From a virus, in the IMG/VR virus record IMGVR_UViG_3300025646_000081, positions 1 to 45,507 of that record: a DNA stretch of 45,507 nucleotides; one strand, written 5' to 3'. This document shows positions 16,991-43,866 of this stretch, piece after piece. The translations under genes were made by a program, and so were the position numbers. The notes beneath the pieces are model-generated. The model searched no databases. It had not been told where the DNA came from and worked only from the letters and a program-made list of their open reading frames with translations. Position 1 is the first letter of the stretch. Each line of letters opens with the position of its first letter.

Positions 16991-16998
16991 CAAAGATA
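16991..16998 (-). promoter_or_regulatory. Promoter -7 box (TATCTTTG) for giant-protein/holin unit
   Basis: The - strand reads TATCTTTG, matching the Bacteroidota -7 consensus TAnnTTTG. It lies in the only gap between the giant gene and the gene before it, 18 nt upstream of the ATG. It differs by one base from the seven identical TATATTTG boxes elsewhere on this strand. No convincing -33 element is visible. Confidence 0.55.
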
Positions 16999-17002
16999 CT
17001 AA

Positions 17003-18253
17003 TTAATCCATTTGCCCTAGTAATTTGATGAGCGCGTCTTTTCCGTACTTAGACGCCATTTTTGAGTTGACTTCTTTGAAAATTTCGTCGTCAAATCTAA
17101 CGGGTATATACTCCACCCCTTTTGAGTTTGTTAATGCCAATATGGGGTTTAATTGATCGTCTAGATATATGCCGTCAATCTTGTACTTGCTCTCTTCTTC
17201 CCCGTCACCAAGCATAACGTAAATTCCAGCATCTCCAAGGGGAGCATACGTGGCTTGTACACTGACTTCTTTACCATCAACAAGTGTTGGAACTGACATT
17301 CCAGTAGATATACCGCTGGTCAAAGAAGAAAAGTTCTCGGCTTCTTCATTGTTTACTTTGTCCTCGCTTTTTTTCTTAAAGGGCTTCCATCCCTCGTTTA
17401 CAGAGGCATCGGCATAAGAGTCAACAGCCCGCTCAATAGCGTTGGGAGAGGACATTATCTCATCTACAGTAAGAGGTTTTTCAGAACTTTGATTTTCCTC
17501 ACTACTTACAAACCACCTAACAGCGTCCCTTTTCTTTAATCCCGTTTGGTCAGACATAATAGTGCTGGCGGCCCAATCTACAGCCTGTTGCCTGTTCTCA
17601 AACACCTTAGTGTCGTCTTTCGGCCTATTTACGTTATAAAAGTCTTCAGGCCTAACAGGGTCTGTGGCTGTCAGATAATTGGACTCATCAAAGAAAGACA
17701 GGTCCACAAGTGAGGGGTCGTTGATGTCGTGATCACCGTTAGGGTCAGATATGACAAAAGACCCGTTTTCAAGCCTTACCCTGAACCTGTTTGTATCTAG
17801 CTCTGCTGTCTTTGCTAGGTAATCATCCAGGCTCCTTCCGTCCATCAGCCCTTGTGAAGACCACTCATCAGGATTAACACCTGACCTTTTAAGTCTTGTG
17901 TTCTGTACTAATATTGGGTGAGTTGTTTTGTAGTACTTCTTTCTGTCATTAAGAAAGAACTCCAACTGATCCAACGCCGTCTGATACTGAACTCTCCCCT
18001 CTTCAGTCTTGAGCATTTCGTTCTTACTGTCTTTCAATATGTTAGCCATCTGCGTGGCTGCATCGAAGTCTCTTTGATACAGACCAGAAGAAGACATAGG
18101 AGGGACCTCTCCAGCAGATTGCATAGCCGCTTCTTCAGCTGCTTTCTCAGCTTCTTGAAGCGTAACGTACTTCTCTATCTGCTTCCTAGTCTCCCCGAAA
18201 AAATCTTGTCTTTCAGGTTTCCCTAAGTCTACTGCTCCGTATAAAGTGCTCAT
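17003..18253 (-). CDS. Putative internal virion protein
   Basis: This 416-residue hydrophilic protein is not recognised by family. It opens with an Ala/Glu-rich helical segment (EAEKAAEEAA, ~34-43) and continues helical to ~115. Acidic mixed regions and a beta-rich stretch follow near the C-terminus (ASVNEGWKPFKKK, then YAPLGDAGIYVMLGDGE). There is no signal peptide or membrane helix. It overlaps the upstream gp14-like gene by 4 nt and sits just ahead of the giant protein. In podoviruses this slot usually encodes the middle of three ejection proteins (gp14-gp15-gp16 of T7), so a similar role is inferred from order and not from similarity. Confidence 0.7.
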   Translation of the reverse strand: MSTLYGAVDLGKPERQDFFGETRKQIEKYVTLQEAEKAAEEAAMQSAGEVPPMSSSGLYQRDFDAATQMANILKDSKNEMLKTEEGRVQYQTALDQLEFFLNDRKKYYKTTHPILVQNTRLKRSGVNPDEWSSQGLMDGRSLDDYLAKTAELDTNRFRVRLENGSFVISDPNGDHDINDPSLVDLSFFDESNYLTATDPVRPEDFYNVNRPKDDTKVFENRQQAVDWAASTIMSDQTGLKKRDAVRWFVSSEENQSSEKPLTVDEIMSSPNAIERAVDSYADASVNEGWKPFKKKSEDKVNNEEAENFSSLTSGISTGMSVPTLVDGKEVSVQATYAPLGDAGIYVMLGDGEEESKYKIDGIYLDDQLNPILALTNSKGVEYIPVRFDDEIFKEVNSKMASKYGKDALIKLLGQMD

Positions 18254-19188
18254 CGTGATTGCTTATCAAACTTCTTAAACAGCTGAGCGGCGTACTTACT
18301 CTGCCGTGCAATGGCGGCTGCTTGCTCTGGGTTCAACACGTACTCACCTCCAGTAAGCTCCCCGATCTTAGACCCGTCTTGCATTACGTCAATAGGGTTT
18401 GACCTGTGAGAAAACTCCCCAGGGGTCTTCTTTACTTTACCTCCAGCAGCATCTATTCCAGCCGCCCTAAGAGCCGCCTGAAGCCTCTCCAGTTCAGCAG
18501 TTTGATTTGGGGTTCCAGAAAGCTGCTGAAGCCCCTCAAGGCCCCCTCCAAAGTCAAGGCTGTTAAATGTTTCCGCACCTCCTCCAGCGCCTCCACCAAA
18601 CAGTCCAGCTCCAGCAGCTTGACCCAGCGTACCAACAAGACCTCCTGCAAAGTCATACCCAAGCTGTCGCCTTTGCTGTCCAGCTTGGAAAGCTCCTTCC
18701 ATGCCAGACCTAGCCTGAGCCCTAGCCATAGCAAGGTCTGCGCCTATATCACCTCTCTGCTCTTGCCTAAGTTGCTCTTCCATCTGACCAACCCTAGCCA
18801 TAGCCCCAGTTTTCCTTCCGTACTCTGCAGCCCCTATGTTAGCCATAGTGCTGGCAGCCTGCTGTTGCTGTGCCCCAAGCCCGCCAAGGATCGCTCTAGC
18901 CCCACCAGCCTTCAAAGCCCCTACAGCTGTACCTGCCTGACGCTGAGCTTCTTGCCTTTGAAGATCGGCAGTAGGATCTTGCATAGCGTACTGCATGTAC
19001 TTACGCATCGTGGGTCCGATACCGTACATACCCTCTCTTTCTTTCGCAAGCTTGTCTGCTTGAGCCTGCCCTTCAGCCCCAAGCTCTTGATAGCGAGCCT
19101 CTTGTTCTTTGAGCCCCTTGCTCTGACCAAAAGCGGAAATACCCTGACCTACAACAGATCCTATGAGTGACAAAGTAATTGGGTCCAT
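18250..19188 (-). CDS. Internal virion protein, gp14-like
   Basis: This 312-residue Ala/Gly/Gln-rich helical protein starts with MDPITLSLIGSVVGQGISAFGQ, a small hydrophobic N-terminal helix typical of short podovirus ejection proteins. The middle (~60-190) is a long Ala/Gln/Arg helix, then a Gly-rich hinge (GLFGGGAGGGAE). The C-terminus has the block TPGEFSHRSNPIDVM...GGEYVLNPEQAAAI (~255-295), which I recognise as recurrent in phage virion proteins of this gene position, often followed as here by a basic end. It begins its own unit, with a TATATTTG box 4 nt before the ATG, and is coupled by a 4-nt overlap to the next internal protein. Specific biochemistry is unknown. Confidence 0.72.
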   Translation of the reverse strand: MDPITLSLIGSVVGQGISAFGQSKGLKEQEARYQELGAEGQAQADKLAKEREGMYGIGPTMRKYMQYAMQDPTADLQRQEAQRQAGTAVGALKAGGARAILGGLGAQQQQAASTMANIGAAEYGRKTGAMARVGQMEEQLRQEQRGDIGADLAMARAQARSGMEGAFQAGQQRRQLGYDFAGGLVGTLGQAAGAGLFGGGAGGGAETFNSLDFGGGLEGLQQLSGTPNQTAELERLQAALRAAGIDAAGGKVKKTPGEFSHRSNPIDVMQDGSKIGELTGGEYVLNPEQAAAIARQSKYAAQLFKKFDKQSR

Positions 19189-19192
19189 GTTA

Positions 19193-19200
19193 CAAATATA
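19193..19200 (-). promoter_or_regulatory. Promoter -7 box (TATATTTG) for internal-protein unit
   Basis: Exact TATATTTG on the - strand, only 4 nt (TAAC) before the ATG at 19188, inside the 13-base gap after the large tail gene. With a start site 4-7 nt after the box the mRNA would begin at or near the start codon, i.e. leaderless. Confidence 0.68.
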
Positions 19201-19201
19201 G

Positions 19202-22200
19202 TTATTGCTGACCTAACGAGTGATCCTGATTGGATTGAACGAAATGTGTATTCACACAATATAGCTCGATAAGTGTAGCTTGGTTATTAGTTAGTGTTAT
19301 TTCTGCCCAATGTCCACGGATTGGGTCTCCGTTTTGATCTTGATCCGTTACAAGAACAAGATTACTTCCAGTAAGCGACACAGAGGTACCCGCGTTTAGC
19401 TGTATTTCTCTAGTGCCAGCAACAGAAGCCAGGGTTCTAGGAGTGTTATTGCCGCCGATTGGAGTTCCTATGTCCGTTAGGTTTCCGCTGCCGTCAACCT
19501 CCATAACCGCAGAGCCTGCCATAAGAGGTAATGTATTTACTCTATTTACAAAAGAGATGAGGCCGCTTCCGATGTCTGCAGATGCAACTTCCCCAATAGG
19601 AATAATATGTTTTGTACTATTATCAGAAGAGTCCCTTCTGATAGGGGCATACCTGCTCCCTTCTTTGGACACAAAATCGGTTTGGTCAATGCTACCTAAG
19701 GCTCCAGTGTCAGTAAGGATTGAAGTAGCTGTCCACCTTGCGTCTGACGGGGCACCCTCTAAGGATATAGCGTTAAACACCTTAGACATGCTAGGATTGT
19801 AGTTGCTCACCACTTTAACCAACGATTCTCCAAACGTACCGTAGAAAGTGTTGTAGTCTGTTTCGTTTGTGTGAGAGAAGAATATCTCAGCATCGTCCGA
19901 CAAAACTGGGTCTACGTAAGTAGCGGAGTACATAGTGCCATTCTGGTCAGCATACATGTCTGGATAGAACGTATACCTGCTCTGCCACACCCCAGCGCTT
20001 ACATTATACCCCAGAGTCAGTCCTCCGTAAAGGAACTCTTCGCTTCCTTCAACCTCAGGGTCATAAGATGGGTTGTTAATCTGTCTTAGGGTTACATAAT
20101 ATTGATCATCTTCTGGGTCGTATCCACTTACAATACGAGAACCCCCTTGAGCCAGGAACGAATCGAGGTTAGACTTAAACAGGGAGTCTACACCGTTTTC
20201 TGAAATCGGGGACAGTCCTTCTGAAGTAAGCCTAACAAGCTTCTTTCTTGACGTGTCTACAAAGAACCCATTGCCGTCGCGAATAAGAACAGACTCAGGG
20301 TTACTCCCGCATCCAAAGTCTCCAGCATAGTATGCTGGGGTATTGAGTACGTTAGTACTAATAGAAACAATACCATCCGTTGTTGGGGAGGTAATGATAT
20401 CTTTGTTTACTGGCACCCTAGCAACTCTATTCTCTTGAAAAGCAAGTAGATAGTCATCTCTAAACGTTCCGATATAGTTACACGCCCCGTTAGCTGAGTC
20501 AAGGCTGAAGAAGTTAGCGAGACTAGGATTGAATGATGATAGTGAAAGGTTTGCTACGTCCTCGGCATAGGCGTCGCTATATGTAATTCCGTTATATCTG
20601 CGGATCGTTGCAGCGTTTTCAAACGGCAGATGAGCACGACCCTTCGCCCATATAGACGAAGAAAATTCATCATTTATATCATCCGATTCTATTTCTAGAG
20701 TCTGATAAAACCAATCACCAGGCTCCAGCGGGTCAACATAAGACATCTTACAAGAAACTGGCCTAAAATAACAGTCGCCATTAGTAACTACTATGCTGTC
20801 TCCGTGATCATTTATTGCTGGATCTTTTCTTGGTCCCACGTCGGCACCATGACCTATTTCATAATATACCTTTTGTTCAGGCTGAGACTTTGGTGAGTAC
20901 ATTTCTACTGTTGTCCCAGGCCAATAATTAGTAGGAGTACTACTGTCTCCATTTTCTCTTTGTTCACCAGTTACCTCAAACCAGTCATAACCAGTGTACT
21001 TTAATGTGTTTCCGTCCACCCCTTCTACTAGAGAGGTTATTTCTGGCGACTCTATTATAAGAAATGTTCCAATATGCGGATCTTCTCCATTATGGGAGGT
21101 TGAGACATTTTCAATTTCCCCTTGATTGCTTGAGTCGTATTGTTTGACTCCAATAATGTTAAACTCGATAACGGTTTCCGAATCTGAAGCCAGAGGATAA
21201 GAGTCAGTAAACGATGATTGAATTCCGCTTCTTCTTCTAATAACCCTTAATTTGTCTCCTTCAGTAAAAGAATAATCCCTAGTAGGATTTTTTTCATCCT
21301 TATACTTGTCTAAAGTTATAAGAGAAACAGCCAGCCTTTTGTCATCAGGGTCAGGAATCCAATTTCCATTACTGGAGTCTTTCTTTCTAAACCTATATGC
21401 GTCACCTACAGTGTACTGAGTAAAATCTCCTATTGAGTTTCTTCCTGAGTAAACTATCTGAAACCTTTTAGCCCATGAAGGAGGATTAAAAGAATCATCA
21501 AAGTTTATTGTAACGGATGCAGGCCCTCTATTTGTTCTAGCAGAAGACCCAACATCTTCAACGTAAACGCTACCAAGCTCATTTACATTACCAGACCTGT
21601 TATGCTCATCATAGTATACTAAACCAAAATCATGAGTGCTCCCAGATTTAAAAGTAGGTACAATTAATTTAGCAAAAGCTTTAGCTAATTTATTAGATAT
21701 GTATGTAGCGTTTTCTATAGATGAATAAGATATCTCACTTTGAAGATTGCCTCCAGTGTCTAATACGTTATTCCAAGAGGCGCCAGAAGAACTAACACTT
21801 TGAACTACATCACCTCCAGGACCAGTTATTTGACCTACTGGCTCTAGAGTCTCCATTTCAATCCTGGAAACTCTAGGCTTCATTATTATTGTACTTGTTG
21901 TAGTTGTTGTATCATCAAATCTCCAGTATACGTTAACACTTCCGTTATAGTTTCCAGAATAGTTTCCAGAAAATGATTCGTTACTAAAAGAGTACTTTTG
22001 AACTGTTTCAATCCCAAATAAGGCTGCATTTAGTCCAGATATGACTTGATTTATCTGCGAGTCTGTTGATACAGAATATTGCAATACAAAATCATCTTGG
22101 TCGCCAGGATATGAGGAGTGAACCAATGCTAACGATGTGGAAGTGAGCGTGTCTGCAGACTGACCACCCTGACCAGTAACTAGGTCTTCAGCTGTTACAC

Positions 22201-23620
22201 TTGAATCAGCTGATATTAAATCCCCAGAAGCGGCAGTGGCTGTAAAGTTGCCAGCGTCAAACTTAAATTTTATCTCTATACTAGTTCCAGCTGGTACTAC
22301 TGTTTGAAAATCAGCAGGAGGTGTTGTTTCAAGAGAATCAAAAGAGCCCCCTCCCAATAAGTCTACTTTTACATTTGGATCTGGGGTCGCCCCATCTATA
22401 AGAATGACATTGTTTACGTCTCCAGTCGATATAAAGTTATTGGACCTGCTTGAAGACGGAAGCGCCGAATAGTTAACATCCATAGTGACTATGGGATTAA
22501 CATTAGGCCTTCCCTCTTCGTAGTTTGAGTACATAACCCTGTTGCCAGTTATAGATTGACCAACAGCAGTAAAAGGAATGTTGTCATAAAGCTTGTTTAC
22601 AGTAACCTGCGAAACAGAGTCTCCGTAGCTATCGTTATAAAACCTATAATTTCTACTTGAATTATCAAAAACAACTACTTGACTTCCGTAGATATCTCTT
22701 GTAACATCTGATCCTAGAGTAACATCGTCTACTATAAAAAAAGCCCCATTATTCCCCTTTCGAGCAAGAAATCTAATTCTCTCAACATCTATTGGGAGTG
22801 TTGATATTGACGGGTTTATGACAACAACGTTGTCTGTTGTTCTGTAAACACCATACCCTTCTTCGTCCATTTTAGAAAAGAAAGAACCCCTAGGGATGGC
22901 AGGAGCTGAGTATGGAGATATGGCAGATTCTTCTCCGTCAGTATACACATACTGATAAGCAAACTGAAATATGTTTTTGTTAAAGTTGTTTTGAGAAACA
23001 GAAGCATCTGTCTCAAAAACAACAGACGGTATGTTGTTAGGAGCGGACTTTATAGCTCCATAAGCCTGATTAAAAGTAGTGTCTGATCCAGGTGTTCCAT
23101 AGTCTAAAGCTAATTGCCTATCTACATTTATTTTTCTTGGCGGGTTTATTCCGTCAGTAAAATATAACGCGCTTTGAATTACACCATCTTGCTGAAAGGC
23201 TGAGTTAACTACATCCGCTTTAACAAAGCTGTTAGCTCTAAATCTTAAAAGAGGAGCTTTTATTACCCTTTTGTAAGTATCGTCTGACGTATTGTACTGA
23301 TATATAGCGTGTTCTGAAGCAGCATAATTATTTCCAGAAGAAGCGCTATTATCAGCAACAAACCAATATATGAATCCCCTCTGAGGATCAGACACGCTGC
23401 CGATAACCGTTACTGCATTGGAGTCTTCGATCCTGTCTGCAGCAGTAAGAGGCGTACCAGCGATCGTACCCCTGACGTTCTTAATGACGCCAGAAGAACT
23501 GCTTCCGCTTTCAGCCATCGTAACGTTCTGGGCGTCAATCATCTCCCCGACTTCAGGGCGCACTAGCCGCTGATCCGCGTCCGCTTGGAGTCTGTTTGGG
23601 ATTGTTTTATCAATAGCCAT
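19202..23620 (-). CDS. Large tail/stabilisation-type virion protein
   Basis: This 1472-residue, beta-rich protein starts with MAIDKTIPNRLQADADQRLV...MIDAQNVTM. I know this N-terminus from 'stabilisation' or tail proteins of Bacteroidota podoviruses. A VIGSVSDPQRGFIYWFVAD strand pair follows (~72-90). The body is a long series of Gly/Asp/Asn/Ser-rich strands, consistent with beta-propeller or nozzle-like architecture. The last ~500 residues include YIGTFRDDYLLAFQENRVARV, another propeller-like piece. It is coupled to the upstream connector gene by a 1-nt TAATG overlap and followed by the internal proteins, matching the tail-nozzle position (compare T7 gp12 and P22 gp10). No enzyme motif was seen. 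Confidence 0.75.
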   Translation of the reverse strand: MAIDKTIPNRLQADADQRLVRPEVGEMIDAQNVTMAESGSSSSGVIKNVRGTIAGTPLTAADRIEDSNAVTVIGSVSDPQRGFIYWFVADNSASSGNNYAASEHAIYQYNTSDDTYKRVIKAPLLRFRANSFVKADVVNSAFQQDGVIQSALYFTDGINPPRKINVDRQLALDYGTPGSDTTFNQAYGAIKSAPNNIPSVVFETDASVSQNNFNKNIFQFAYQYVYTDGEESAISPYSAPAIPRGSFFSKMDEEGYGVYRTTDNVVVINPSISTLPIDVERIRFLARKGNNGAFFIVDDVTLGSDVTRDIYGSQVVVFDNSSRNYRFYNDSYGDSVSQVTVNKLYDNIPFTAVGQSITGNRVMYSNYEEGRPNVNPIVTMDVNYSALPSSSRSNNFISTGDVNNVILIDGATPDPNVKVDLLGGGSFDSLETTPPADFQTVVPAGTSIEIKFKFDAGNFTATAASGDLISADSSVTAEDLVTGQGGQSADTLTSTSLALVHSSYPGDQDDFVLQYSVSTDSQINQVISGLNAALFGIETVQKYSFSNESFSGNYSGNYNGSVNVYWRFDDTTTTTSTIIMKPRVSRIEMETLEPVGQITGPGGDVVQSVSSSGASWNNVLDTGGNLQSEISYSSIENATYISNKLAKAFAKLIVPTFKSGSTHDFGLVYYDEHNRSGNVNELGSVYVEDVGSSARTNRGPASVTINFDDSFNPPSWAKRFQIVYSGRNSIGDFTQYTVGDAYRFRKKDSSNGNWIPDPDDKRLAVSLITLDKYKDEKNPTRDYSFTEGDKLRVIRRRSGIQSSFTDSYPLASDSETVIEFNIIGVKQYDSSNQGEIENVSTSHNGEDPHIGTFLIIESPEITSLVEGVDGNTLKYTGYDWFEVTGEQRENGDSSTPTNYWPGTTVEMYSPKSQPEQKVYYEIGHGADVGPRKDPAINDHGDSIVVTNGDCYFRPVSCKMSYVDPLEPGDWFYQTLEIESDDINDEFSSSIWAKGRAHLPFENAATIRRYNGITYSDAYAEDVANLSLSSFNPSLANFFSLDSANGACNYIGTFRDDYLLAFQENRVARVPVNKDIITSPTTDGIVSISTNVLNTPAYYAGDFGCGSNPESVLIRDGNGFFVDTSRKKLVRLTSEGLSPISENGVDSLFKSNLDSFLAQGGSRIVSGYDPEDDQYYVTLRQINNPSYDPEVEGSEEFLYGGLTLGYNVSAGVWQSRYTFYPDMYADQNGTMYSATYVDPVLSDDAEIFFSHTNETDYNTFYGTFGESLVKVVSNYNPSMSKVFNAISLEGAPSDARWTATSILTDTGALGSIDQTDFVSKEGSRYAPIRRDSSDNSTKHIIPIGEVASADIGSGLISFVNRVNTLPLMAGSAVMEVDGSGNLTDIGTPIGGNNTPRTLASVAGTREIQLNAGTSVSLTGSNLVLVTDQDQNGDPIRGHWAEITLTNNQATLIELYCVNTHFVQSNQDHSLGQQ

Positions 23621-25178: not shown

Positions 25179-25182
25179 ACAG

Positions 25183-25190
25183 CAAATATA
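25183..25190 (-). promoter_or_regulatory. Promoter -7 box (TATATTTG) for connector/tail unit
   Basis: Exact TATATTTG on the - strand, 4 nt (CTGT) before the chosen ATG at 25178. It abuts the T-tract of the terminator at 25203-25218, so the previous transcript ends where this one begins. It also decides the start of the downstream gene. Confidence 0.7.
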
Positions 25191-25202
25191 CAAAAAGAAA
25201 AA

Positions 25203-25218
25203 GCCGCCCGAAGGCGGC
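25203..25218 (-). terminator. Intrinsic terminator, UUCG loop
   Basis: On the - strand a GCCGCC/GGCGGC stem with a UUCG loop is extended by G-U and A-U pairs and followed by five T's, C and five more T's. It lies 23 bases after the stop of the AT-hook-like gene (25242) and is the clearest rho-independent terminator in the window. Confidence 0.9.
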
Positions 25219-25241
25219 CTTTCTGTTGGTGTTTTGATCGT

Positions 25242-26042: not shown

Positions 26043-26073
26043 GATATTAAATTAAATGTTGCGAGTAGTAAAA

Positions 26074-26098
26074 GGGGGAGAGGACACTCCCCTCCCCC
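26074..26098 (-). terminator. Terminator/attenuator after the major capsid gene
   Basis: On the - strand an 11-bp stem (GGGGGAGGGGA with TCCTCTCCCCC, one G-U pair) closes a GTG loop and is followed by TTTT. It starts 17 bases after the capsid stop. The short T-run suggests termination that may be partial, letting some transcription reach the next gene, which has no obvious promoter. Confidence 0.82.
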
Positions 26099-26114
26099 AG
26101 TTACCTATATTGTA

Positions 26115-27488
26115 TTACTTGAGCAGGATGTGCTGGTTAGCAGCACGAGTGACCAAGTTGCACTCAGAGCGGTAGTTGAACTTTACAGTGTCCTTACCGT
26201 TGGTGACGTGACCAAGAACGCCGCCACCTTCGATCCAGTGCTCCATCTCGCGTGAGTAGTTGCCAGCGGACTTGTAGTTCATCTCCAAAGAAGGAGCCTT
26301 AACTCCGCTCTTCGCATCAGCCACTTGAGTCATCGGCAACATAGCACCCTTGATGGTACCATTCAAACCTCCCAAGGTAGGATCATTAAGAAGCTTCCAG
26401 TCGTGCTTGTGGAACGTGTATCCACCACGGGTAAAGCTCTTAAATCCAAGGCTTACAGCCATATCCTGAGAGTTGTTGAAAGCACCGAACTGACTAGCCA
26501 AGCCACCGCTCAAGTCCGCTCCTGCACCCAATCCTGTTGCAAGCATGTCGTCTACATCCAAGGAGGTCTGGCGATTCACATACATAGCGTACTCACCAGG
26601 GGCTCCTTCTTTGTCGAGTTCAAGAATAAGCAAGTCAATGTCACCGTACGTCTCAAACGTACCAGTAGCCGTGATACCTCTCTTCTCAACAGCCTGGAAG
26701 TAACCTTCAGAACCAACCTTGCCTGACGCATTTGCAACGGTAGTGTCTGCCGCAATACCTGCAAGATCATTAAGTGCTGGGTCGGCAGCGCTAGTGTTAA
26801 GCTGAGAGTACAGAAGCATCATCTCCCTCTGATTCATGAACCTCTTGCGAGTATCCATTTCGTTCTTCAGGTACCACATGTACTGACCGTTGACATTCAA
26901 CCAGCCAATGTTGGTGGCTTGAGATCCATTAACCTCGTACATCTCTTTGGTGATGATGTAGGGGTTTCTGCGCCTTACAATACCAGTGTCATAAAAAGAC
27001 GTGGGCTGTTCAGTACCCTGTCCATATACGTTACCGATTATTGCAGCCGTGCCAGAAGCGTTGGTGAGGGCGCTGCCGTCCATCACTACTACTTCAACTC
27101 CTGTTGTGCTGATTTTTCCAGTTACAACCACTCTTTGACCAGAGGCAAGGAGGAGGACGTCATTAACCCGAACTTTAGTGTTATCGCAGGTTACCTCTGC
27201 ATTGGCGTCTGCCGCCGCAGCCGTAAGCGCAGAGTAAGCGACAGTCTTGTGAAGACGACCCTCCTCGTACCACTCTACCTCGTCAGAAGTACCAGCGTTC
27301 TTTTTAGCGCCCGTAAGCTCCAAGAAGCCAGTGATACCTTGATCACCGTAGGTTTGAACGAAAAGGTCCCGAACGTCAGGTTTCGTTGGGTCAATCAGCG
27401 TGCCAAGAGACACGTAGTTTTCTGGGGTTGCTTTCAGACCCCCCAGATTAGGGTCTGCTACATTAGATACATTACCAGTAAAAGCCAT
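26115..27488 (-). CDS. Major capsid protein
   Basis: This 457-residue protein reads as an HK97-fold major capsid protein of the Bacteroidota podovirus/crAss-like sort. It has an N-terminal MAFTGNVSNVADPNLGGL arm and LFVQTYGDQGITGFLELTG. An inserted beta domain spans ~95-155. Then come RRRNPYIITKEMYEV, NGQYMWYLKNEMDTRKRFMNQREMMLLYSQ (written here in part as RKRFMNQREMM), IDLLILELDK and the C-terminal KSFTRGGYTFHKHDW...HWIEGG region. It follows the putative scaffold and is followed by a terminator, the usual setting for a highly expressed capsid. Its 22-nt leader is 16/22 A, a feature linked to strong translation in Bacteroidota. The identification comes from motifs and context, since HK97 folds share little sequence. 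Confidence 0.85.
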   Translation of the reverse strand: MAFTGNVSNVADPNLGGLKATPENYVSLGTLIDPTKPDVRDLFVQTYGDQGITGFLELTGAKKNAGTSDEVEWYEEGRLHKTVAYSALTAAAADANAEVTCDNTKVRVNDVLLLASGQRVVVTGKISTTGVEVVVMDGSALTNASGTAAIIGNVYGQGTEQPTSFYDTGIVRRRNPYIITKEMYEVNGSQATNIGWLNVNGQYMWYLKNEMDTRKRFMNQREMMLLYSQLNTSAADPALNDLAGIAADTTVANASGKVGSEGYFQAVEKRGITATGTFETYGDIDLLILELDKEGAPGEYAMYVNRQTSLDVDDMLATGLGAGADLSGGLASQFGAFNNSQDMAVSLGFKSFTRGGYTFHKHDWKLLNDPTLGGLNGTIKGAMLPMTQVADAKSGVKAPSLEMNYKSAGNYSREMEHWIEGGGVLGHVTNGKDTVKFNYRSECNLVTRAANQHILLK

Positions 27489-27510
27489 GTTTTCTTATTT
27501 TTTGTTGTTG
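27489..27510 (-). promoter_or_regulatory. A-rich leader of the capsid gene
   Basis: The 22 bases between the scaffold stop and the capsid ATG contain 16 A's, one T and one G on the - strand, with no Shine-Dalgarno. In Bacteroidota A-rich leaders favour initiation, so this likely boosts capsid translation relative to the scaffold upstream. Confidence 0.5.
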
Positions 27511-28572: not shown

Positions 28573-28586
28573 AAATTAAATTTTAG

Positions 28587-28594
28587 CAAATATA
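28587..28594 (-). promoter_or_regulatory. Promoter -7 box (TATATTTG) for scaffold-capsid unit
   Basis: Exact TATATTTG on the - strand, 14 nt before the scaffold ATG, in the 30-base gap after the cluster of small basic proteins. It would drive scaffold and capsid, ending at the hairpin at 26074-26098. Confidence 0.68.
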
Positions 28595-28602
28595 AGTGTG
28601 AA

Positions 28603-28842: not shown

Positions 28843-29027
28843 TAGTTCTTATATCCGCCTCCAGCTTTTTTATACTCAGAAGCGAGTAGTTGTGCTTTTC
28901 TAGCCGACCACTGACCAGGTTTGCCGCCCTTACTGCCTGCTTTAATACGATTAAACAGACTCTTACGCATTCCAGGCTTGGTGTAATTGCCAGCTTCGTT
29001 TACGCGAGATTTTACTGCTTTAGCCAT
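28842..29027 (-). CDS. Small basic conserved phage protein
   Basis: This is a 61-residue basic protein with NEAGNYTKPGMRKSLFNRIKAG, then KGGKPGQWSARKAQLLA and a Gly-rich YKKAGGGYK end. I know this motif set from many uncharacterised phage proteins but not a function. I start it at the ATG at 29027, 8 nt inside the previous gene. An in-frame TTG at 29036 would add only three residues and is less likely. Its stop shares one base with the next start (TAATG). Confidence 0.75.
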   Translation of the reverse strand: MAKAVKSRVNEAGNYTKPGMRKSLFNRIKAGSKGGKPGQWSARKAQLLASEYKKAGGGYKN

Positions 29028-29701: not shown

Positions 29702-29706
29702 AAATG

Positions 29707-29714
29707 CAAATATA
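29707..29714 (-). promoter_or_regulatory. Promoter -7 box (TATATTTG) for small-protein unit
   Basis: Exact TATATTTG on the - strand, 5 nt (CATTT) before the ATG at 29701, in the 17-base gap after the small tail-linked gene. The spacing implies a leaderless or near-leaderless message. Confidence 0.68.
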
Positions 29715-32974: not shown

Positions 32975-32991
32975 TGCAGCCCTTAGTTCTG

Positions 32992-32999
32992 CAAATATA
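32992..32999 (-). promoter_or_regulatory. Promoter -7 box (TATATTTG) for fibre/RCC1 unit
   Basis: Exact TATATTTG on the - strand, 17 nt before the ATG at 32974 in a 32-base gap. An AAGGG lies in the leader, a weak Shine-Dalgarno at best. Confidence 0.65.
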
Positions 33000-33006
33000 A
33001 AGTAAA

Positions 33007-35506: not shown

Positions 35507-35523
35507 GTGGATTAAAGTTTGCT

Positions 35524-35531
35524 CAAATATA
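35524..35531 (-). promoter_or_regulatory. Promoter -7 box (TATATTTG) for tail unit
   Basis: Exact TATATTTG on the - strand, 17 nt before the ATG at 35506. It sits inside the spacer of a 6-bp inverted repeat (AGTTTG at 35516-35521, CAAACT at 35532-35537), which could be chance or an operator. Confidence 0.62.
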
Positions 35532-35536
35532 CAAAC

Positions 35537-37783
35537 TCATCCCATAACAACAAACTTGACAACATCACCGTTCTCAAAACCGTTAGCAAAAACATCGCAG
35601 CTATTTTTGTATTCATCAGGGAAGGTCCCCGATTGAGTTCTAACCCTAACCTTAGGGTGAACAATACTTCCTACTGGAAGGTTTCCAGCTGCTTGAGATA
35701 TTACAATACCGACCACATGAACGAATCCATCCTCTAGGTCCAAGCCGTGATATATTCTAACAGAACCATCTGGGCGAGGCGCTGAGGTTGAACCTGAGGC
35801 ACCGTAGTTTACAGTAACAACAGAGGTCCTAGTATAAGACCTAACAAAAGTTTGGTTGTATGTGCTTTCAGATCCGCCATCAGGGGTGTACGTAAACGAC
35901 TCTGTTCTGCTGTACTTTTTAAGCAGGCCATACGGAGTGGTAATGAACTTCAGTGTATTCTCTTCCGCATCCGTATCATTCATATCGTGATACAAGAACC
36001 TGTCGTCTGCTTGTTGTGTGGTCGGAACGACACGCACGTCAACGGTACTAAGTATTCTTCCCTCTATTGGGTTTGTGGTGTATGTTGCTGGAGTAACACC
36101 ATCAGCTTCATAAGTGGCTACTTCGTATCCATGAGCCAAGTACCACCCACCGTAAAGGGTGTTGTCAGTGTTGTACTTGTAGTTTATATATGGTCTGGCG
36201 TTGTTTATGTTAGTTCCACTACCATGGAAAACCTCAATGCCAGAAGGCTGCAAACTAGCCGATGAAACGTTAGACGTAATGGTTCCGTCTGATTCTCTGG
36301 CTACGTTTAAAGAGAGAAGGTTATCTTCAAAAGAAACTTCCTCTGTAGTTGTTGTTATAAGACTACCAGCTACGGTAAGATCCCCGTCTATAGTGGTGTC
36401 TCCATACACCCTAAGGTTGCTGGACGTTCCGTTTCCACTATCCCACAAGGTAGAGGTTCCGATAGTTAGTCCTCCCGCCGCGGTGTCGGTTCCAAGCTGA
36501 ATAATCCTATTAAGAGCAATGGCTAGGTTTCCGTTTCCGTCTGTATCTACAGTAGTGCTCGCTGCGGAGCCATTATCGTAATCATATATAACTACGTTTG
36601 TTGCGTTGTTGGCTGGGTCAGGGGACATTACGGTGCTGGCGTAAACTCCCTGAGGAAGGTCGTCTATAATTCCAGTCCCATCTCCGTTCGTTATGTCCTC
36701 AAAAGCCGCCGTCCCAAGGGTTTTCTTAAATACTTGGCCTGCGCCGTCTACTACTAAGGCGCTGGTTAGACCAAGAACGTCTGAGTAGAGGTTGGTGATT
36801 CTAGTTCCAGAAAGCTGAGCAGTAACAGCCCCACTATCATCCGTGACGACTTGGATGTTCGCAGCGGCGCCTAGAACAACACCTGAAGCCCTGTTTACCT
36901 GCAAACCTGGAGTATAGTTGCCTTCTGCAGAGTTGTTGGTGTTGGGCTGAACCAAAAAATTGGTCCGTATGTTACTCTGAAGATTCTCTCCAGGGACTCC
37001 TGTCTGACCTACGTCAAGCAAGGTATTATATCCAGACTGCCCGACATTATATGTCGTGGCAACAGCATCACCATTCCACAACCTCAAGGACCTTCCTTGG
37101 TGCTGTCCGTTGATCTTGAGCCTTATTCTTTTTTGAGGAGCATCGGCGCCTGTGAGGTTAACTATCTCTATACTTGAGTCACCTGTGGCTAACCCTTGAT
37201 TAAATACATTCGCTACATCGTCGTAAGTAGGGAACGTAAACGCAAGAGTTCCGTCTCCGACAACCAAAGGTGTTGTGACAATAGTATTGTCAGCGTCATT
37301 GTATGTCACCCCGCTGAAGTCAGAAATTCCTCCACCTCCACCACCAACGAGACTGTCCAACAACGCCCAGGCCGCAGGAACAGCTGTAAGGGTTCCGTTA
37401 TCGTCTGTTACTGTAAGGGTAGCCTCGCTGTTTGGCGTTTCTATCAGCGTGATATCGGTAAGGCAGTAGAACTTTCCTATCCCGTTTGTAGTCGAAGGAG
37501 CTTCAAAAAACGTATCCGTACCGTCAATTTCAACCGTGATCGTGTTATCCCCGTTAGCAGCGCCTGTTGTAGTAAGAGGGTCTGTGTTTCGGACAAAAAC
37601 TATAGAACTATACTCCTTGAGCTGCCCGATAGCAGCTGCAGACACTATGTGCTTGAGCTTAGCCAGCTCAAAAAGGTTGTCTACCGAGGTCCTTATACCA
37701 CCTTGAATCTCATCACTCTCGACCAGTCCGTACCCGTTGACCGTCGAGTTGTGAGTTAGCGCATCAATAAATCCTATAGCCAT
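35537..37783 (-). CDS. Tail fibre-like structural protein
   Basis: This is a 748-residue, Thr/Asn/Gly-rich beta protein. A helical N-terminal segment (RTSVDNLFELAKLKHIVSAAAIGQLKEY) could be a base-attachment or trimerisation part. It is followed by many short strands. A shaft-like piece, GDTTIDGDLTVAGSLITTTTE...FEDNLLSLN (~465-500), is the 'Gd-T-I-x-G-D-L-x-V-x-G' pattern common in phage fibres. The C-terminal ~230 residues are a separate beta region (YINYKYNTDN, WYLAHGYEV, YGLLKKYSRTESFTYT) and may contact the receptor. It sits 9 bases downstream of the 631-residue tail gene with no promoter box. Confidence 0.72.
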   Translation of the reverse strand: MAIGFIDALTHNSTVNGYGLVESDEIQGGIRTSVDNLFELAKLKHIVSAAAIGQLKEYSSIVFVRNTDPLTTTGAANGDNTITVEIDGTDTFFEAPSTTNGIGKFYCLTDITLIETPNSEATLTVTDDNGTLTAVPAAWALLDSLVGGGGGGISDFSGVTYNDADNTIVTTPLVVGDGTLAFTFPTYDDVANVFNQGLATGDSSIEIVNLTGADAPQKRIRLKINGQHQGRSLRLWNGDAVATTYNVGQSGYNTLLDVGQTGVPGENLQSNIRTNFLVQPNTNNSAEGNYTPGLQVNRASGVVLGAAANIQVVTDDSGAVTAQLSGTRITNLYSDVLGLTSALVVDGAGQVFKKTLGTAAFEDITNGDGTGIIDDLPQGVYASTVMSPDPANNATNVVIYDYDNGSAASTTVDTDGNGNLAIALNRIIQLGTDTAAGGLTIGTSTLWDSGNGTSSNLRVYGDTTIDGDLTVAGSLITTTTEEVSFEDNLLSLNVARESDGTITSNVSSASLQPSGIEVFHGSGTNINNARPYINYKYNTDNTLYGGWYLAHGYEVATYEADGVTPATYTTNPIEGRILSTVDVRVVPTTQQADDRFLYHDMNDTDAEENTLKFITTPYGLLKKYSRTESFTYTPDGGSESTYNQTFVRSYTRTSVVTVNYGASGSTSAPRPDGSVRIYHGLDLEDGFVHVVGIVISQAAGNLPVGSIVHPKVRVRTQSGTFPDEYKNSCDVFANGFENGDVVKFVVMG

Positions 37784-37792
37784 GTCTTGTTT

Positions 37793-39688
37793 TTATGAGA
37801 TGTTGTAAACAACGGAGGTGTCATTAAACGAACCAGCCGCGTTACTTATGTATACAGTGTAGTTTATTGCCTGGGCCCCTCCAGCAACGCCAAGATCTAC
37901 TGAAACCCCAGCACCTGGAGTAACCTTCGTGAACGCATCAGTAAGATTCTGACCAGAGGCGAGGTCAACTACGGTGTTGTGTGTTGGGGAATCCCCTGAA
38001 TTGTCTGTGTTAGGGTAGCACAAGTACAGATATTCGTTTGCTGCAGAGCCAGAATTGACCGAGAAGTTTCCTATGCTACTAATAACAGAAGCATCGCCAG
38101 TGCCCATATCAATCGGTATATCCGAAGATGCAGAAGCAGCGGTAAGAATAGCGCTTGCTTGAGAGCTTGCGTTTGTGTCATCAAAAGAAGTCGTAGCGTA
38201 GGCTATTCTAACTGGAGCGAACATTTGAACGGTCGTAGTGCTGTTCGGAACCTCATTTGTAGACGTTGCCGCCGTGCCATTGTCTATAATTTCAACCCTG
38301 TACTTTATTTTATCGTAATCCCTACTAGTTATAGGCAGAGACTCGCTTCCAGTATAAACCGCAGAAAGGCCATCATCAAAGGTTATTGTAGATGTGGAAT
38401 TGTAAGCTATTGAAACCGAAGTTTCATGAACCGTTGTATAAGTGTTTGAGTTATCAAAAGCCCTTTTAACTCTAAGGGTGCTGATCGTCGTTGTCGGGGT
38501 GTTGTTCTGAACAGTAAATGAAACGTCAGAGTTGACATTTCCATAAAGCCTGTCTCCACTAGTTGTGGTGATTTGAGAAGCTTCGTTTGTACTTATCACA
38601 CCAGTATCAATCCTACTTACGTTTCTGGACGTTATTGAAGCTTGAGAATATGCACTTACACTTATGTGACCTTTCCTGTTGTCCTCAGAAAGCTTTGACG
38701 CCGTGTCGTCTTGATATCCAGTAACCTCTACCCTGTACTTAAAATTACCAGAATCTCTCCCCGCCAAGTCGTAGGTTGTGTCCTGGAAGTAAAATTGCGA
38801 AGTAACAGTGGATGAATTGTAAATATTTAGAGCCTGAATCCCAGAAAAGTTTTGAGTAAGTCCATTGGAGTTTGAAGTGAGGTTGCCAGTCATCTGCCAG
38901 GCGCTACCGCTCCATTCTATTTTCGCTATTGAAGTATCCGTAGAGAAAGCAGTAGAGCTATCCCTAAAGACCTCTATCTTTTTTATTCCAAAGTCCTGAA
39001 GGTTTCCGCTGCTGTCGGAAGAATCCATAGAGACGACGTTGGAGTTTTTTACTGTGAAACTACCTACCAAGCCAGCAAACTCATCAAGCCTCTCGGCTAT
39101 ATCGAAGGTTCTCGTCCCCATTTTACCATTATTAAAGACGATATCGCCTGTAACTGGAACTTGATACTGAGTTAGAGCCTCTTCAATGGCTTCAAGTGCA
39201 GTCTTTCCAGATAGGGGCACGTTTTGACCCGTGAGGTATTTACCAAAAGCTCCATCAGCACCAATGTTTGCAATGATGTCGCTTGCAAAGACTGGAGTGT
39301 TACCTATAGACTTCCAGTTTGGGTTTCCAGATACAGTAAAAAAGCTATAATAGTCTGTTCCCTGAACCCCCGTGTCGTTGTTTGGATTATCTAGATCAGT
39401 ATCTGAGTCGGGATTATAATTGCCTGTGGTAATAGATCCCCCCGAACCGTTACTAAAGAATCCAATGTATATAAATACATCTCCCGTGGCCCTGTCTACG
39501 AGTACGGTTCCCTGAGAGACCTTAGGCCAGGGGACGTTAGTAGCATTAAAAAGATCGTCAGTAGCAAGGCCCACAGGGTTTGTAACGTCTTTGACAAATA
39601 TTACACCCTTTGCATTGTTTTCCGAGATGTCGATTATCGGAAAATTTTTATTTGAACTTTTTAGTTCGTCTCCAAAAAATATAGCCAT
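37793..39688 (-). CDS. Tail/baseplate-type structural protein
   Basis: This is a 631-residue, Ser/Thr/Asn-rich beta protein. The N-terminus (MAIFFGDELKSS...VIFVKDV, TVLVDRATGDVFIYIGF) resembles the dockerin-bearing tail protein's start. A helical motif (GKTALEAIEEALTQYQVPV, ~162-180) follows, then repeated Ig-like-looking stretches (FKYRVEVTGYQDDTASKLSEDN; IKYRVEIIDNGTAATST), two similar KYRVE units that suggest tandem domains. No enzyme or transmembrane feature was found. It is coupled on its 5' side by TAATG. It is probably part of the tail hub or fibre attachment. Confidence 0.7.
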   Translation of the reverse strand: MAIFFGDELKSSNKNFPIIDISENNAKGVIFVKDVTNPVGLATDDLFNATNVPWPKVSQGTVLVDRATGDVFIYIGFFSNGSGGSITTGNYNPDSDTDLDNPNNDTGVQGTDYYSFFTVSGNPNWKSIGNTPVFASDIIANIGADGAFGKYLTGQNVPLSGKTALEAIEEALTQYQVPVTGDIVFNNGKMGTRTFDIAERLDEFAGLVGSFTVKNSNVVSMDSSDSSGNLQDFGIKKIEVFRDSSTAFSTDTSIAKIEWSGSAWQMTGNLTSNSNGLTQNFSGIQALNIYNSSTVTSQFYFQDTTYDLAGRDSGNFKYRVEVTGYQDDTASKLSEDNRKGHISVSAYSQASITSRNVSRIDTGVISTNEASQITTTSGDRLYGNVNSDVSFTVQNNTPTTTISTLRVKRAFDNSNTYTTVHETSVSIAYNSTSTITFDDGLSAVYTGSESLPITSRDYDKIKYRVEIIDNGTAATSTNEVPNSTTTVQMFAPVRIAYATTSFDDTNASSQASAILTAASASSDIPIDMGTGDASVISSIGNFSVNSGSAANEYLYLCYPNTDNSGDSPTHNTVVDLASGQNLTDAFTKVTPGAGVSVDLGVAGGAQAINYTVYISNAAGSFNDTSVVYNIS

Positions 39689-40962
39689 TACTCAGAAAGT
39701 GTTATATGCAAATCTAGTTTTAAATCTTCCGTAAATGCCCCAGGGACAACAAACCTATAATACCTGACCGCATGTCCTTCCGCATTTAAGTAGTTGTCTC
39801 CAAGTGGATTTGTTCCGCCCAAAGATACAATAGAATTAGAAAGAGAATAAGCCCCAGAGCCCGCCGTGGTAGCCGCAACTTCTGACAGCAAAAACTCAGA
39901 AGGCAACTCTATAACTAAAAATCTATTTGAATCGTTTACACTGTAAGTGTTTCCATCTATCGACAAGGGAACAATAACCTCTCTACCTTCAGAAGTAAAG
40001 TCAACTATTATTTCAGAATATATGTCTTCGTTCGGGTCTTGAAAAAGTATGTTCTCTATAAATGCGGACTCTGACTGATATAAGTTCGGTTCTTGATTTA
40101 GTGGGTTAGGTGATATATTAGAACCCTGAGGATCAGCGCAGACGCTAGTAAACGCTCTTATTTTTTTACCAACGTAAAACTTTACAAGCTCAATTTCTTC
40201 AATAACGATTTGTGACGGACCATAACCAAACTGCACCTCGTCCTGCCAAAAAACAACAGCTATTATCTTATTTTCTCCAAGCTGAACCCCGTCAATAAGA
40301 TCGAAGTATGAAAACACTTGAGATTGGTCGTATAGGCTTGTATCCCAGCTTGTTTTATATATAGCACTTATAAATTGATTAGAAGGAACAACCTTCACTA
40401 CAAGAGGCTGAGCGTCTAAATAATTTGCGTTTTTTACACTAATAGAACCAGAAGTAAGAAACAGATCGCTACTGATGTCCATTTTAAACTCACTAGCAAA
40501 AGTGTTTGTTTGCTGACTTCCTATATCAGCGCCGTCTAAAACCAAATAGACACCACCAGACACATAAACATTACTGTCTGTCAGCATGTTCCTTATTATG
40601 ACTTCAAGGCTTGTTTCTTCTCCTATTTCAAACCCTTCCTCTATATCACCTACCTCATTCGTGACAAACAACTCTGAAGACAGCTCACCCGTCCCTGTAC
40701 CAGCCTCTCCAGGATCGCCTTTAGGTCCCTGTATGAGAACAACCTTAAATGGCCTAACCTCAGGTGAGCTTACTACGACCGAAGGAGAGGCTATAGGTTC
40801 TATAGAAACCTCAGGTGGGGAGATAGAAGGAACATTTATTATGCTGCTGTTTTGATTTACGTGGACAGTCCTTACTTCATTAATAGGAGCCGCCACTGCG
40901 GGTGAAGATTGCCCCGTTATTCTTATGACTGGGCTAGATTCGTTTACTACCCTTACAGCCAT
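39688..40962 (-). CDS. Tail structural protein with short collagen-like stretch
   Basis: This is a 424-residue protein. The first ~75 residues are Pro/Ser/Val-rich and extended (SISPPEVSIEPIASPSVVVSSPEV). A short GPKGDPGEAGTGTG collagen-like patch (~79-92) follows, of the kind that joins modules in phage fibres. The remainder is beta-rich with KTSWDTSLYDQSQ and YYRFVVPGAF. It overlaps its neighbours by 1 nt on both sides (TAATG). The related KTSW and Y(Y)RxV strand style in the next gene's tail proteins suggests a shared building plan. It is assigned to the tail/baseplate by order and composition only. Confidence 0.68.
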   Translation of the reverse strand: MAVRVVNESSPVIRITGQSSPAVAAPINEVRTVHVNQNSSIINVPSISPPEVSIEPIASPSVVVSSPEVRPFKVVLIQGPKGDPGEAGTGTGELSSELFVTNEVGDIEEGFEIGEETSLEVIIRNMLTDSNVYVSGGVYLVLDGADIGSQQTNTFASEFKMDISSDLFLTSGSISVKNANYLDAQPLVVKVVPSNQFISAIYKTSWDTSLYDQSQVFSYFDLIDGVQLGENKIIAVVFWQDEVQFGYGPSQIVIEEIELVKFYVGKKIRAFTSVCADPQGSNISPNPLNQEPNLYQSESAFIENILFQDPNEDIYSEIIVDFTSEGREVIVPLSIDGNTYSVNDSNRFLVIELPSEFLLSEVAATTAGSGAYSLSNSIVSLGGTNPLGDNYLNAEGHAVRYYRFVVPGAFTEDLKLDLHITLSE

Positions 40963-41396
40963 TATGAGTTAGTTACATCCTCGACCACAGTAAACTTACC
41001 ATACAAGTAAGTTTTTATTTCTTCACTCAATCCTTGTATTTTCTTATGTTGCAAGTCATAAACATACTCTCCAGATGTATTTAGATCTTGAGCGTCGCAA
41101 GTAATAACCAACTTTGAGTTTTCAGCGTCTCCAGTTTCTCTCGTAAACTTAAAGTCAGTACTAGCCGTATCTATTGTTCCGCTTGGGTTGTATATGGTGT
41201 TATACACGGGGCTTGTAGACTCTTCGTTTTGAGAGGTTCTAACTTGCATCTTCCACTGACCCTGAAGGGTTGCATCTTCTGGATCGTCGCCCTGAAGGGG
41301 TATCTCTACACCAAAATCAATACCAAGACTGAAGGTGTCCCCCTTTCTGCATACTATATCTAGCCTAGAGGCTGTATCAAGATTGACCTGTGCCAT
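40962..41396 (-). CDS. Small tail/baseplate-type protein
   Basis: This 144-residue, beta-rich protein starts MAQVNLDTASRLDIVCRKGDTFSLGIDF. The RxGDTF-L opening, followed by a W-x-M-x-V-R strand (GQWKMQVRTSQNEE) and a YVYDLQHKK...TYLYGKFTVVEDVT end, is the layout of phage proteins that sit at the base of fibres or baseplates and contain one immunoglobulin-like sandwich. It overlaps the end of the portal gene by 20 nt and the next tail gene by 1 nt, so it is translated as part of the same unit. Confidence 0.68.
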   Translation of the reverse strand: MAQVNLDTASRLDIVCRKGDTFSLGIDFGVEIPLQGDDPEDATLQGQWKMQVRTSQNEESTSPVYNTIYNPSGTIDTASTDFKFTRETGDAENSKLVITCDAQDLNTSGEYVYDLQHKKIQGLSEEIKTYLYGKFTVVEDVTNS

Positions 41397-43851
41397 TTTG
41401 TATTATTTGGTTTACTATCTCCTGAGGATCTTCGGATCTACCACCCGTGATTGGCTCTGGAAGCTCCCCTCTTTCCCCTTGCCTTTGTGATATAAGCTTA
41501 CTCTGCTCAGAAGCTTGCTTCTTAACCCTATCGTCCTTTCTGTCTTCTTTTAGAACCTCAAGCTTTTCTTTAAACTCTTTTTCTTCTGTTCTGAATCCAA
41601 GTGTCGCTTGAGCCTTGATCATCTCAATCTCTTTTCTGTGCTCGTGCTTTAGAACCTCCATCTGAGCGTCTAGCTGAGACTTCATTTGCTCCATTTGAGC
41701 ATCTATCTGAGCCTTCATCTGCATCTCCTGCATCTTAGCTTGGCTTGCGGCTTGTGCGCTTTGAGCCTGAATCTGAGCCTGCATCTGAGAGTTTTGTTGA
41801 GCAAGCTGCTGGTTAGCCGCCATACGCTTCTTGCGTCTAACTACAAGGAGCCTTTCGGCTTGATTCACATCCTTGAGCTGCCTTATGGCTATGGCGTCCT
41901 CTATGTCAAGTTCTTTCTGAGACAAGGATATCTGTATATTCTGCTCCAGATACTGCTTTTCTACATCCTCCATTTCCTTGACGACTTGCACCCCAAAATT
42001 GTACATAGCCAGATCACTAAATGTAGTTAGAATCCCAATATTTTCTTTACCTATTGCGTTTTCGTAAGCCTTATACAAAATGCTTTCTCTAGGTATTACT
42101 TGGAGACACTTGACTATATCAGAGCACACTTTCTTATACAGCACCATCGACGAGTTGGTGATGTCGTATATAGCATTGTTTCCTGCAGCTATAGCCTGCT
42201 GCCTAACACCAACCAGCTGTTCTCCTTTCGGTGTTGTCCCATCCATGGCTTCATTGATGCCAGTGGCGTCCCTGATCATCCTCAAGTAATGATTGTACAG
42301 GGCAATAAACTCGTTTATGTTGCGAACGCTATTGTTGATCTCCCTAATTGGAGGGTTCTGAAATCCCCCTTCAGGGTTTTTGCTTCTGTAGTAGAAAACA
42401 CCCGTTTGCTCGTATATGTCATGAAGCTCAAGCGGCTGAAGCTCTCCACCTTTGCCCAGCTGTACGTTTTCAAGCCCTTCTACGTCAATGATAATCCCGT
42501 CTGGTTTCGCCTTGGCTATTGACTGCTGTATTTTAAGGTGAGTAATCTGCAACTGGTCTGCAAAACCTATACAGCTATCAACCATAGACTTAGGTATCAT
42601 ATCCTCCATGTTGGTTGCAACAACAGAGTAGGACAGGTTGGTTCTGGTTAAATCGTGAACGTTTTTAGGGATGTTAGTCTTCATGCCGTAGTTAAACAGC
42701 ATATCACAACCAATGATATAGCTACCTCCGTAAACAGTGGCGTTTTCAAGTTTTGAAACTTCCCTTTTGTAAACCGAGTTGGTTGGCTCCTTGTAACTGT
42801 CTCCTTTGAAATAGAAGCCCATGTTGCCAAACCTGCTTTCTTTTTCCTCGAAGTACATGCAGTCTACAGACATGAACTCAAAGTCCATCACCTCAATCAT
42901 GTACTCGTCATAGCCGAACTTATTTCTTTTCAGATACTCGTCGTACCTGCTCTGACCTATTTTAGAAGCGTCGTACCCATACTTTTTGGCTGCTTTCAGA
43001 CCTATTTCTTTATACTGCTCTTCAGTAAATTGATCTCCAGCAATTCTTTTCAATTCTTGTATCGGAATCCTTTTTACATGACCAGCATATACAAGGTCTC
43101 CAAAGCTTGGGTCGGTTGTGAAGCTGTGAATGAAATCAACAGGATCCACGTATGAGACATTGATTCCGTAGCTTGGGTCATTGTCTCTTTTTGTAACCGC
43201 CATACCCAAGGTAGTGAGGTCATTAACGCACCTCCTGTATACAGTGTCGTTAAAGTCATTCCACTTTAACGTCATATCTGTAGCTATTTGAGCGGCAATC
43301 TCTGACGTGGACTTGATATTATTGCCGATAAATATTTCAGCCTCCTCAAGGGTATCTGGTATGCTTTCCATTTCAGAGACATTGACACCAGTGTCTTCCT
43401 GTATCTGACCAAGCTTCTTTTTGTTGGCAACCGCCATCTCCACCTTCTTCCGCTCTAAATCCTTTTCGCTGGAAGACAATGGGTCTACCGCCTCCAGGTT
43501 AGGGTACGGAGAACTAGATAAAATTTTGTTTACTACAATACGAACGAACTTAGGCAGGATCGGTACTGGAGTAAAGTCTATATTTAAAAAACTACCGTCT
43601 CCATTGTTTGGATCTAAGCTCGTCAAAAGCTGCCTATATATGGAAGTGTCTTGAGTTCCGTTGGCGTATTTCCTGTTCCTTTCAAAAACTTTGCGCCTCT
43701 TCCTCATCAATGATTCGTCATGATCGAACCCTCCCCACTGAGAAGAAATAGCCTTTGCATACCGCAACCCGTATTCCTTTCCGTCCTTTATCGACTTTGG
43801 TGCGAGTGGATCAGGAAAGCTGACACTATTATTCCCTTGTTTGCCGTACAT
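41377..43851 (-). CDS. Portal protein
   Basis: This 824-residue protein is the likely dodecameric portal through which DNA enters and leaves the head. Evidence includes its place directly after terminase and a conserved-looking core (RKRRKVFERNRKYANGTQD, then PILPKFVRIVVNKILSS). It also has NDLTTLGMAVTKRDNDPSYGI and YVDPVDFIHSFTTDPSFGDL. Then YNHYLRMIRDATGINEAMDG appears, a typical portal stem motif (LRxI-x-x-A-T-G-I-N). After ~670 it ends in a long Gln/Met/Lys coiled coil (MQAQIQAQSAQAASQAKMQE and onward to ~785), an unusually long barrel/crown-like extension. The ATG is 7 nt after a TATATTTG box. Confidence 0.88.
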   Translation of the reverse strand: MYGKQGNNSVSFPDPLAPKSIKDGKEYGLRYAKAISSQWGGFDHDESLMRKRRKVFERNRKYANGTQDTSIYRQLLTSLDPNNGDGSFLNIDFTPVPILPKFVRIVVNKILSSSPYPNLEAVDPLSSSEKDLERKKVEMAVANKKKLGQIQEDTGVNVSEMESIPDTLEEAEIFIGNNIKSTSEIAAQIATDMTLKWNDFNDTVYRRCVNDLTTLGMAVTKRDNDPSYGINVSYVDPVDFIHSFTTDPSFGDLVYAGHVKRIPIQELKRIAGDQFTEEQYKEIGLKAAKKYGYDASKIGQSRYDEYLKRNKFGYDEYMIEVMDFEFMSVDCMYFEEKESRFGNMGFYFKGDSYKEPTNSVYKREVSKLENATVYGGSYIIGCDMLFNYGMKTNIPKNVHDLTRTNLSYSVVATNMEDMIPKSMVDSCIGFADQLQITHLKIQQSIAKAKPDGIIIDVEGLENVQLGKGGELQPLELHDIYEQTGVFYYRSKNPEGGFQNPPIREINNSVRNINEFIALYNHYLRMIRDATGINEAMDGTTPKGEQLVGVRQQAIAAGNNAIYDITNSSMVLYKKVCSDIVKCLQVIPRESILYKAYENAIGKENIGILTTFSDLAMYNFGVQVVKEMEDVEKQYLEQNIQISLSQKELDIEDAIAIRQLKDVNQAERLLVVRRKKRMAANQQLAQQNSQMQAQIQAQSAQAASQAKMQEMQMKAQIDAQMEQMKSQLDAQMEVLKHEHRKEIEMIKAQATLGFRTEEKEFKEKLEVLKEDRKDDRVKKQASEQSKLISQRQGERGELPEPITGGRSEDPQEIVNQIIQNGTGQS

Positions 43852-43858
43852 CTAACGG

Positions 43859-43866
43859 CAAATATA
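43859..43866 (-). promoter_or_regulatory. Promoter -7 box (TATATTTG) for portal unit
   Basis: Exact TATATTTG on the - strand, 7 nt before the portal ATG at 43851, within the 21-base gap after the terminase stop. It would serve portal and the four genes downstream, up to the fibre gene ending at 35537. Confidence 0.68.

Follow-up and report, generated by a model that had tools for sequence, protein, structure and literature searches.

Probable Bacteroidota-type -7 boxes before the late genes of a marine phage and their predicted leaderless spacing

Bacteroidota differ from model bacteria both in their promoters and in their translation starts, and little is known about how the phages of this phylum time their late genes. 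The virus record IMGVR_UViG_3300025646_000081 (45,507 bases), which was analysed in full and is called the window here, raises this question through an octamer, TATATTTG, that recurs shortly before its late genes: do these boxes mark late promoters, and if so, of what kind? Our comparison with relatives suggests that they are very probably -7 elements of the Bacteroidota sigma-A type, at which late transcription would start at several points and of which about half would give leaderless or nearly leaderless messages. The literature searched yielded no paper that names TATATTTG for a phage.

The record is classed as linear and is therefore perhaps incomplete, and the promoter of the terminase gene lies beyond it. 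The terminase, portal and structural proteins show kinship with phages of Flavobacterium, Cellulophaga, Maribacter and Tenacibaculum, and a Bacteroidota host is likely, as deduced solely from the related isolates on these genera.

Boxes in the window and at the same junctions of relatives

A preliminary description of this DNA had placed seven exact copies of TATATTTG, and one TATCTTTG, at the positions of Table 1, in small gaps just before start codons. Exactly seven copies of the octamer are found in the window, all on the - strand, the TATCTTTG is present on this late strand as well, and all eight boxes lie within gaps between late genes, at distances of 4, 4, 5, 7, 14, 17, 17 and 18 nt from an ATG. 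In 100 dinucleotide shuffles the octamer occurred on average 1.5 times on both strands together and at most six times, so that none of the 100 reached seven. The looser class TAnnTTTG is at its expected level (34 found, 33 expected) and is not enriched as such; the signal therefore resides in the exact octamer and its placement. A box had been claimed for nearly every late gap of more than 10 bases, and 8 of 10 such gaps have one, the two exceptions being the gap ahead of the probable major capsid gene (27489-27510) and one that contains a terminator (26043-26114). The gene behind box 25183 probably starts at ATG 25178, a longer ORF from TTG being one that would overlap the box, and once this start is used no equal octamer lies inside a gene of the window; gene starts were taken from ORFs with ATG only.

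Table 1. Predicted promoter boxes and terminator-like elements of the window
Feature	Position	Strand	Remark
Late promoter -7 box TATATTTG	43859..43866	-	7 nt before portal gene ATG 43851
Late promoter -7 box TATATTTG	35524..35531	-	17 nt before ATG 35506
Late promoter -7 box TATATTTG	32992..32999	-	17 nt before ATG 32974
Late promoter -7 box TATATTTG	29707..29714	-	5 nt before ATG 29701 (DUF6321 protein)
Late promoter -7 box TATATTTG	28587..28594	-	14 nt before ATG 28572
Late promoter -7 box TATATTTG	25183..25190	-	4 nt before ATG 25178; leaderless geometry
Late promoter -7 box TATATTTG	19193..19200	-	4 nt before ATG 19188; leaderless geometry
Late promoter -7 box TATCTTTG	16991..16998	-	18 nt before giant 2987-aa gene, ATG 16972
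Intrinsic terminator	26074..26098	-	After probable major capsid gene
Intrinsic terminator	25198..25223	-	Directly upstream of box 25183
Terminator-like hairpin	7553..7576	+	Between convergent early and late strands

The octamer was counted in two sets of related loci. In the first, made up of the window and 80 loci that surround the portal gene, 124 octamers lie in 42.8 kb of gaps against 26 in 940 kb of coding sequence. The second, another 80 loci retrieved via a different late protein, has 231 octamers on the late strand against 18 on the other. Fifteen near-complete genomes, which partly coincide with the second set and do not form an independent sample, with a few contigs also in the first, have about 117 octamers on the late strand against 8 on the opposite one, while the reversed control pattern gives about 30 (both strands). 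Three of the related genomes, G021, G023 and G025, carry end repeats of 81, 123 and 114 bp, respectively, and are therefore probably complete, at 60-63 kb.

At the orthologous junctions before 43851, 29701, 28572, 25178 and 19188, box and spacing are retained in close relatives although the flanks diverge. The box before the portal gene stands 5 or 7 nt from the ATG in G001-G005 and 20 nt in G012 and G017; that before 29701 is retained with 5 nt in G001, G003 and G004, and as TATCTTTG with 4 nt in G005; that before 28572, the closest upstream promoter box for the probable capsid gene, is kept at 14 or 15 nt in G001, G003, G004 and G005; and the 4-nt spacing before 19188 is found in most relatives. 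The giant gene is preceded by TATCTTTG or TATATTTG at 18-20 nt in G019, G020, G021 and G024. The relatives give less backing to boxes 35524 and 32992. For 32992, a 17 nt spacing before large late genes is also seen in G001, G019 and G020; the promoter call at 35524 is less certain because the box is missing at the same junction in G001 and G003. Position, strand, conservation and spacing of the boxes, their link to a terminator and the lack of a -33 element are established by comparison at the sequence level, while a start of transcription at the boxes, the form of polymerase that reads them and the translation of leaderless messages are inferences. On this comparative basis there is good support for the proposal that near-identical host-type -7 promoters follow one another along the late strand, with one ahead of most late modules.

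A 1472-aa structural late protein of the window (19202-23620) has a C-terminal crAss muzzle domain (PF25729), and a ribonucleotide reductase is encoded at 5572-7476, with cellular matches in a scan of genome contigs at 30-39% identity that come mostly from Nomurabacteria, a Lokiarchaeote being the top one.

Promoter anatomy and the early strand

All eight window boxes conform to the Bacteroidota -7 element TAHHTTTG, which is conserved in relatives. Upstream of it, dereplicated late sites (51 in one analysis, 86 in another) have an AT-rich block at -15 to -21, with an AT fraction near -18 of 0.71-1.00 across the eight window sites, and nothing at the -33 position. This is close to the promoters mapped in F. 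johnsoniae, which have TAHHTTTG, a start 4-5 nt past the box and an AT-rich block near -18 (PMC6847099). A sigma-A-type RNA polymerase would then start 4-5 nt after each late box, giving several start points along the late strand, and the preference for A at the fifth base after the box (23 of 39 sites with longer leaders) may be an independent hint of the start point. In comparison with the Bacteroidota sigma-A consensus (sigma-ABfr; TTTG / TAnnTTTG) the phages thus share the -7 box, the AT block near -18, a weak or absent -33 and the predicted start, and differ in that their inner bases are mostly TA. E. coli-type promoters occur in the window at shuffle level, and no Rfam family was found there.

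From the lack of a convincing -33 element the preliminary description had concluded that a phage factor may help recognition. The lack itself is confirmed, with TTTG at N20-22 in 1 of 86 late TATATTTG sites of relatives and at N19-22 upstream of one of the eight window boxes. The conclusion does not follow from it alone, as a -33 element is hardly visible in the mapped F. johnsoniae promoters either (PMC6847099) and, being weak in that organism itself, is not a firm requirement for a Bacteroidota sigma-A promoter.

A phage factor is nevertheless thinkable because the early-strand promoters of relatives often do have the -33 TTTG. Their boxes are mostly TATCTTTG or TACCTTTG, and many are preceded by TTTG at N20-22 and a run rich in A; most leaders measure 22-53 nt. 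Promoters built as AAATAAATTTGGAA ... TATCTTTG, followed by G-poor leaders, are seen on the early strand of G001, G019, G020, G022, G025, G027 and G031. In dereplicated relatives, with early and late assigned by strand and gene content rather than by expression time, TTTG at N20-22 is found at 18 of 48 early-strand boxes against 1 of 86 late TATATTTG (Fisher p ~1e-8). This contrast rests on the relatives, because the early strand of the window is only 7.5 kb long and has no promoter bearing a -33.

It is possible, though we consider it rather unlikely, that the late promoters need such a factor, the phage altering the host RNA polymerase to read -7-only boxes in a T4-like manner. Besides the early/late difference, this would fit the late boxes of distant isolates, which also mostly lack TTTG (2 of 81 have it), the fixed inner TA, a stricter requirement than that of the host consensus, and the conservation in nearly all relatives of a MarR-like winged-helix protein. 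The latter, of 138 aa and encoded outside the window, is transcribed in G021 from the early strand, away from a late box, and is present in 14 other genomes; its winged helix is a prediction, with MarR proteins as the best solved matches (E ~0.002, TM ~0.55), and to call it a candidate regulator is a guess. In L200 its gene occupies 8787-9200 (-), on the early strand although surrounded by the late region and likewise divergent from a late box, with homologues in L012, L005, L001 and others. Against a phage factor, no sigma-70 region 2 was found in the window or in 17 relatives and isolates, where a very divergent factor could still be present, and region 4 matches only below the cut-off; no shared operator lies upstream of the AT block, which argues against a classical DNA-binding activator; and two early promoters of G022 consist of TATATTTG with a -33, so that the octamer itself is not late-only. 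A virion RNA polymerase within the giant 2987-aa protein was also considered and rejected, there being no DxDGD-type motif and no PDB sequence match.

Late promoters of phage T4 consist of a -10 element only and have no -35. The present clade resembles T4 in having early promoters with an upstream element and late ones with the proximal box only, but differs in that no sigma-like late factor was found and the box is of host type rather than new. One may go one step further and speculate that this clade of marine flavobacterial phages has two classes, early promoters with -33 and long leaders, and late ones with -7 only, often leaderless, which a phage factor would switch on and whose messages the ribosome would favour late in infection; we consider this combined scheme rather unlikely as well. 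The related flavobacterial podophages (Elemovirus, Pachyviridae, Pervagoviridae), which are connected to the window by terminase and portal, likewise have late boxes without -33, but in elemoE and ctfjg026 TATCTTTG outnumbers TATATTTG and leaderless spacing is rarer.

Spacing, terminators and predicted leaderless messages

The distance from box to ATG is bimodal. In the 15 genomes it is at most 7 nt at 47 of 86 sites (exactly 4 nt at 32 of them), 8-13 nt at none and 14-35 nt at 35, while the reversed control pattern has 4 nt in 1 of 95 and 8-13 nt in 17 of 95 cases (Fisher p ~1e-12 at 4 nt and ~1e-5 at 8-13 nt). The other samples behave similarly, with 4 nt at 17 of 51 sites in the first set, and in the second 4 nt at 44 of 115, 8-13 nt at one and 14-31 nt at 56. 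For one and the same gene the box can stand 4 nt from the ATG in some lineages and 14-24 nt away in others, the N-terminal codons being similar.

If transcription starts 4-5 nt after the box, a spacing of 4-5 nt therefore corresponds to a leaderless message, and one of at least 14 nt to a leader of about 10 nt or more. About half of the late messages in the clade are accordingly predicted to be leaderless or nearly so, with the ATG at the start or a few bases from it, and the remaining sites would give the longer leaders; short leaders between these two lengths are avoided, as judged from the spacing. In the window the predicted start falls on the start codon at two sites with 4 nt and one with 5 nt. 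A genome-contig scan with the phage ribonucleotide reductase, sought as a host comparator, gave no Bacteroidota, and host leader lengths were therefore drawn from papers: 5.5% of messages are leaderless in F. psychrophilum and 3.7% of leaders are under 10 nt in B. thetaiotaomicron, so that leaderless messages amount to a few percent in mapped hosts, against leaderless spacing at about half of the phage sites; this rarity in hosts weighs against the reading proposed here. The leaderless genes described by Zheng 2011 (PMC3160421) are marked by a TA-like box some 12 nt upstream of their start codons, and the first T of the box at the 4-nt phage sites is also 12 nt before the ATG; their type is commonest in Actinobacteria and Deinococcus-Thermus, whereas here a Bacteroidota box is used in phage late genes. 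The ribosomal protein bS21, sought in 17 records as a phage-encoded partner for leaderless translation, was not found.

The junction before 25178 links the boxes to termination. In all 38 dereplicated relatives a strong intrinsic hairpin immediately precedes the box, at about -16 to -24 kcal/mol and with very different stem sequences, its T-run occupying the AT block, and distant relatives have the same arrangement with TATCTTTG. This placement of a box directly behind a terminator, found at one junction, is a further difference from Bacteroidota sigma-A promoters; here one transcript would end and the next begin. The claim of eight separate transcription units is, however, too strong, as clear terminators were seen at just three places, behind the capsid gene, in front of box 25183 and at the end, and most boxes would therefore provide additional starts nested within a transcript that reads through. 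No box belongs to the probable major capsid gene (26115-27488) itself, a terminator follows it, and the next gene has no visible promoter; hairpin-like sequences occur at the same junction in G003, G004 and G005.

The terminator directly 5' of a box is also difficult to reconcile with the view that the boxes act in the RNA, as signals that help translation to start, and not as promoters. Their closeness to start codons and the absence of Shine-Dalgarno sites in Bacteroidota (PMC6847099) would speak for such signals, but the distance to the ATG varies between 4 nt and more than 30 nt and leaves the range 8-13 nt empty, the conservation reaches upstream as the AT block, and genes with overlapping starts have no boxes, which together make this explanation very improbable. 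That the boxes are a chance or compositional artefact of AT-rich gaps agrees with the level of the TAnnTTTG class in the window, but is contradicted by the excess of the exact octamer over all shuffles, by the strand and gap bias and by the conservation at orthologous junctions, and can practically be dismissed.

With the boxes read as sigma-A-type -7 elements, what is new is the leaderless spacing, together with the difference between early and late promoters. If this reading is true, the octamer would allow late units to be recognised simply in many uncultured marine phages, the two strands would let promoters that have a -33 element be compared in nature with others that lack it, and the late genes would provide a natural collection of leaderless messages from a phylum in which such messages are rare.
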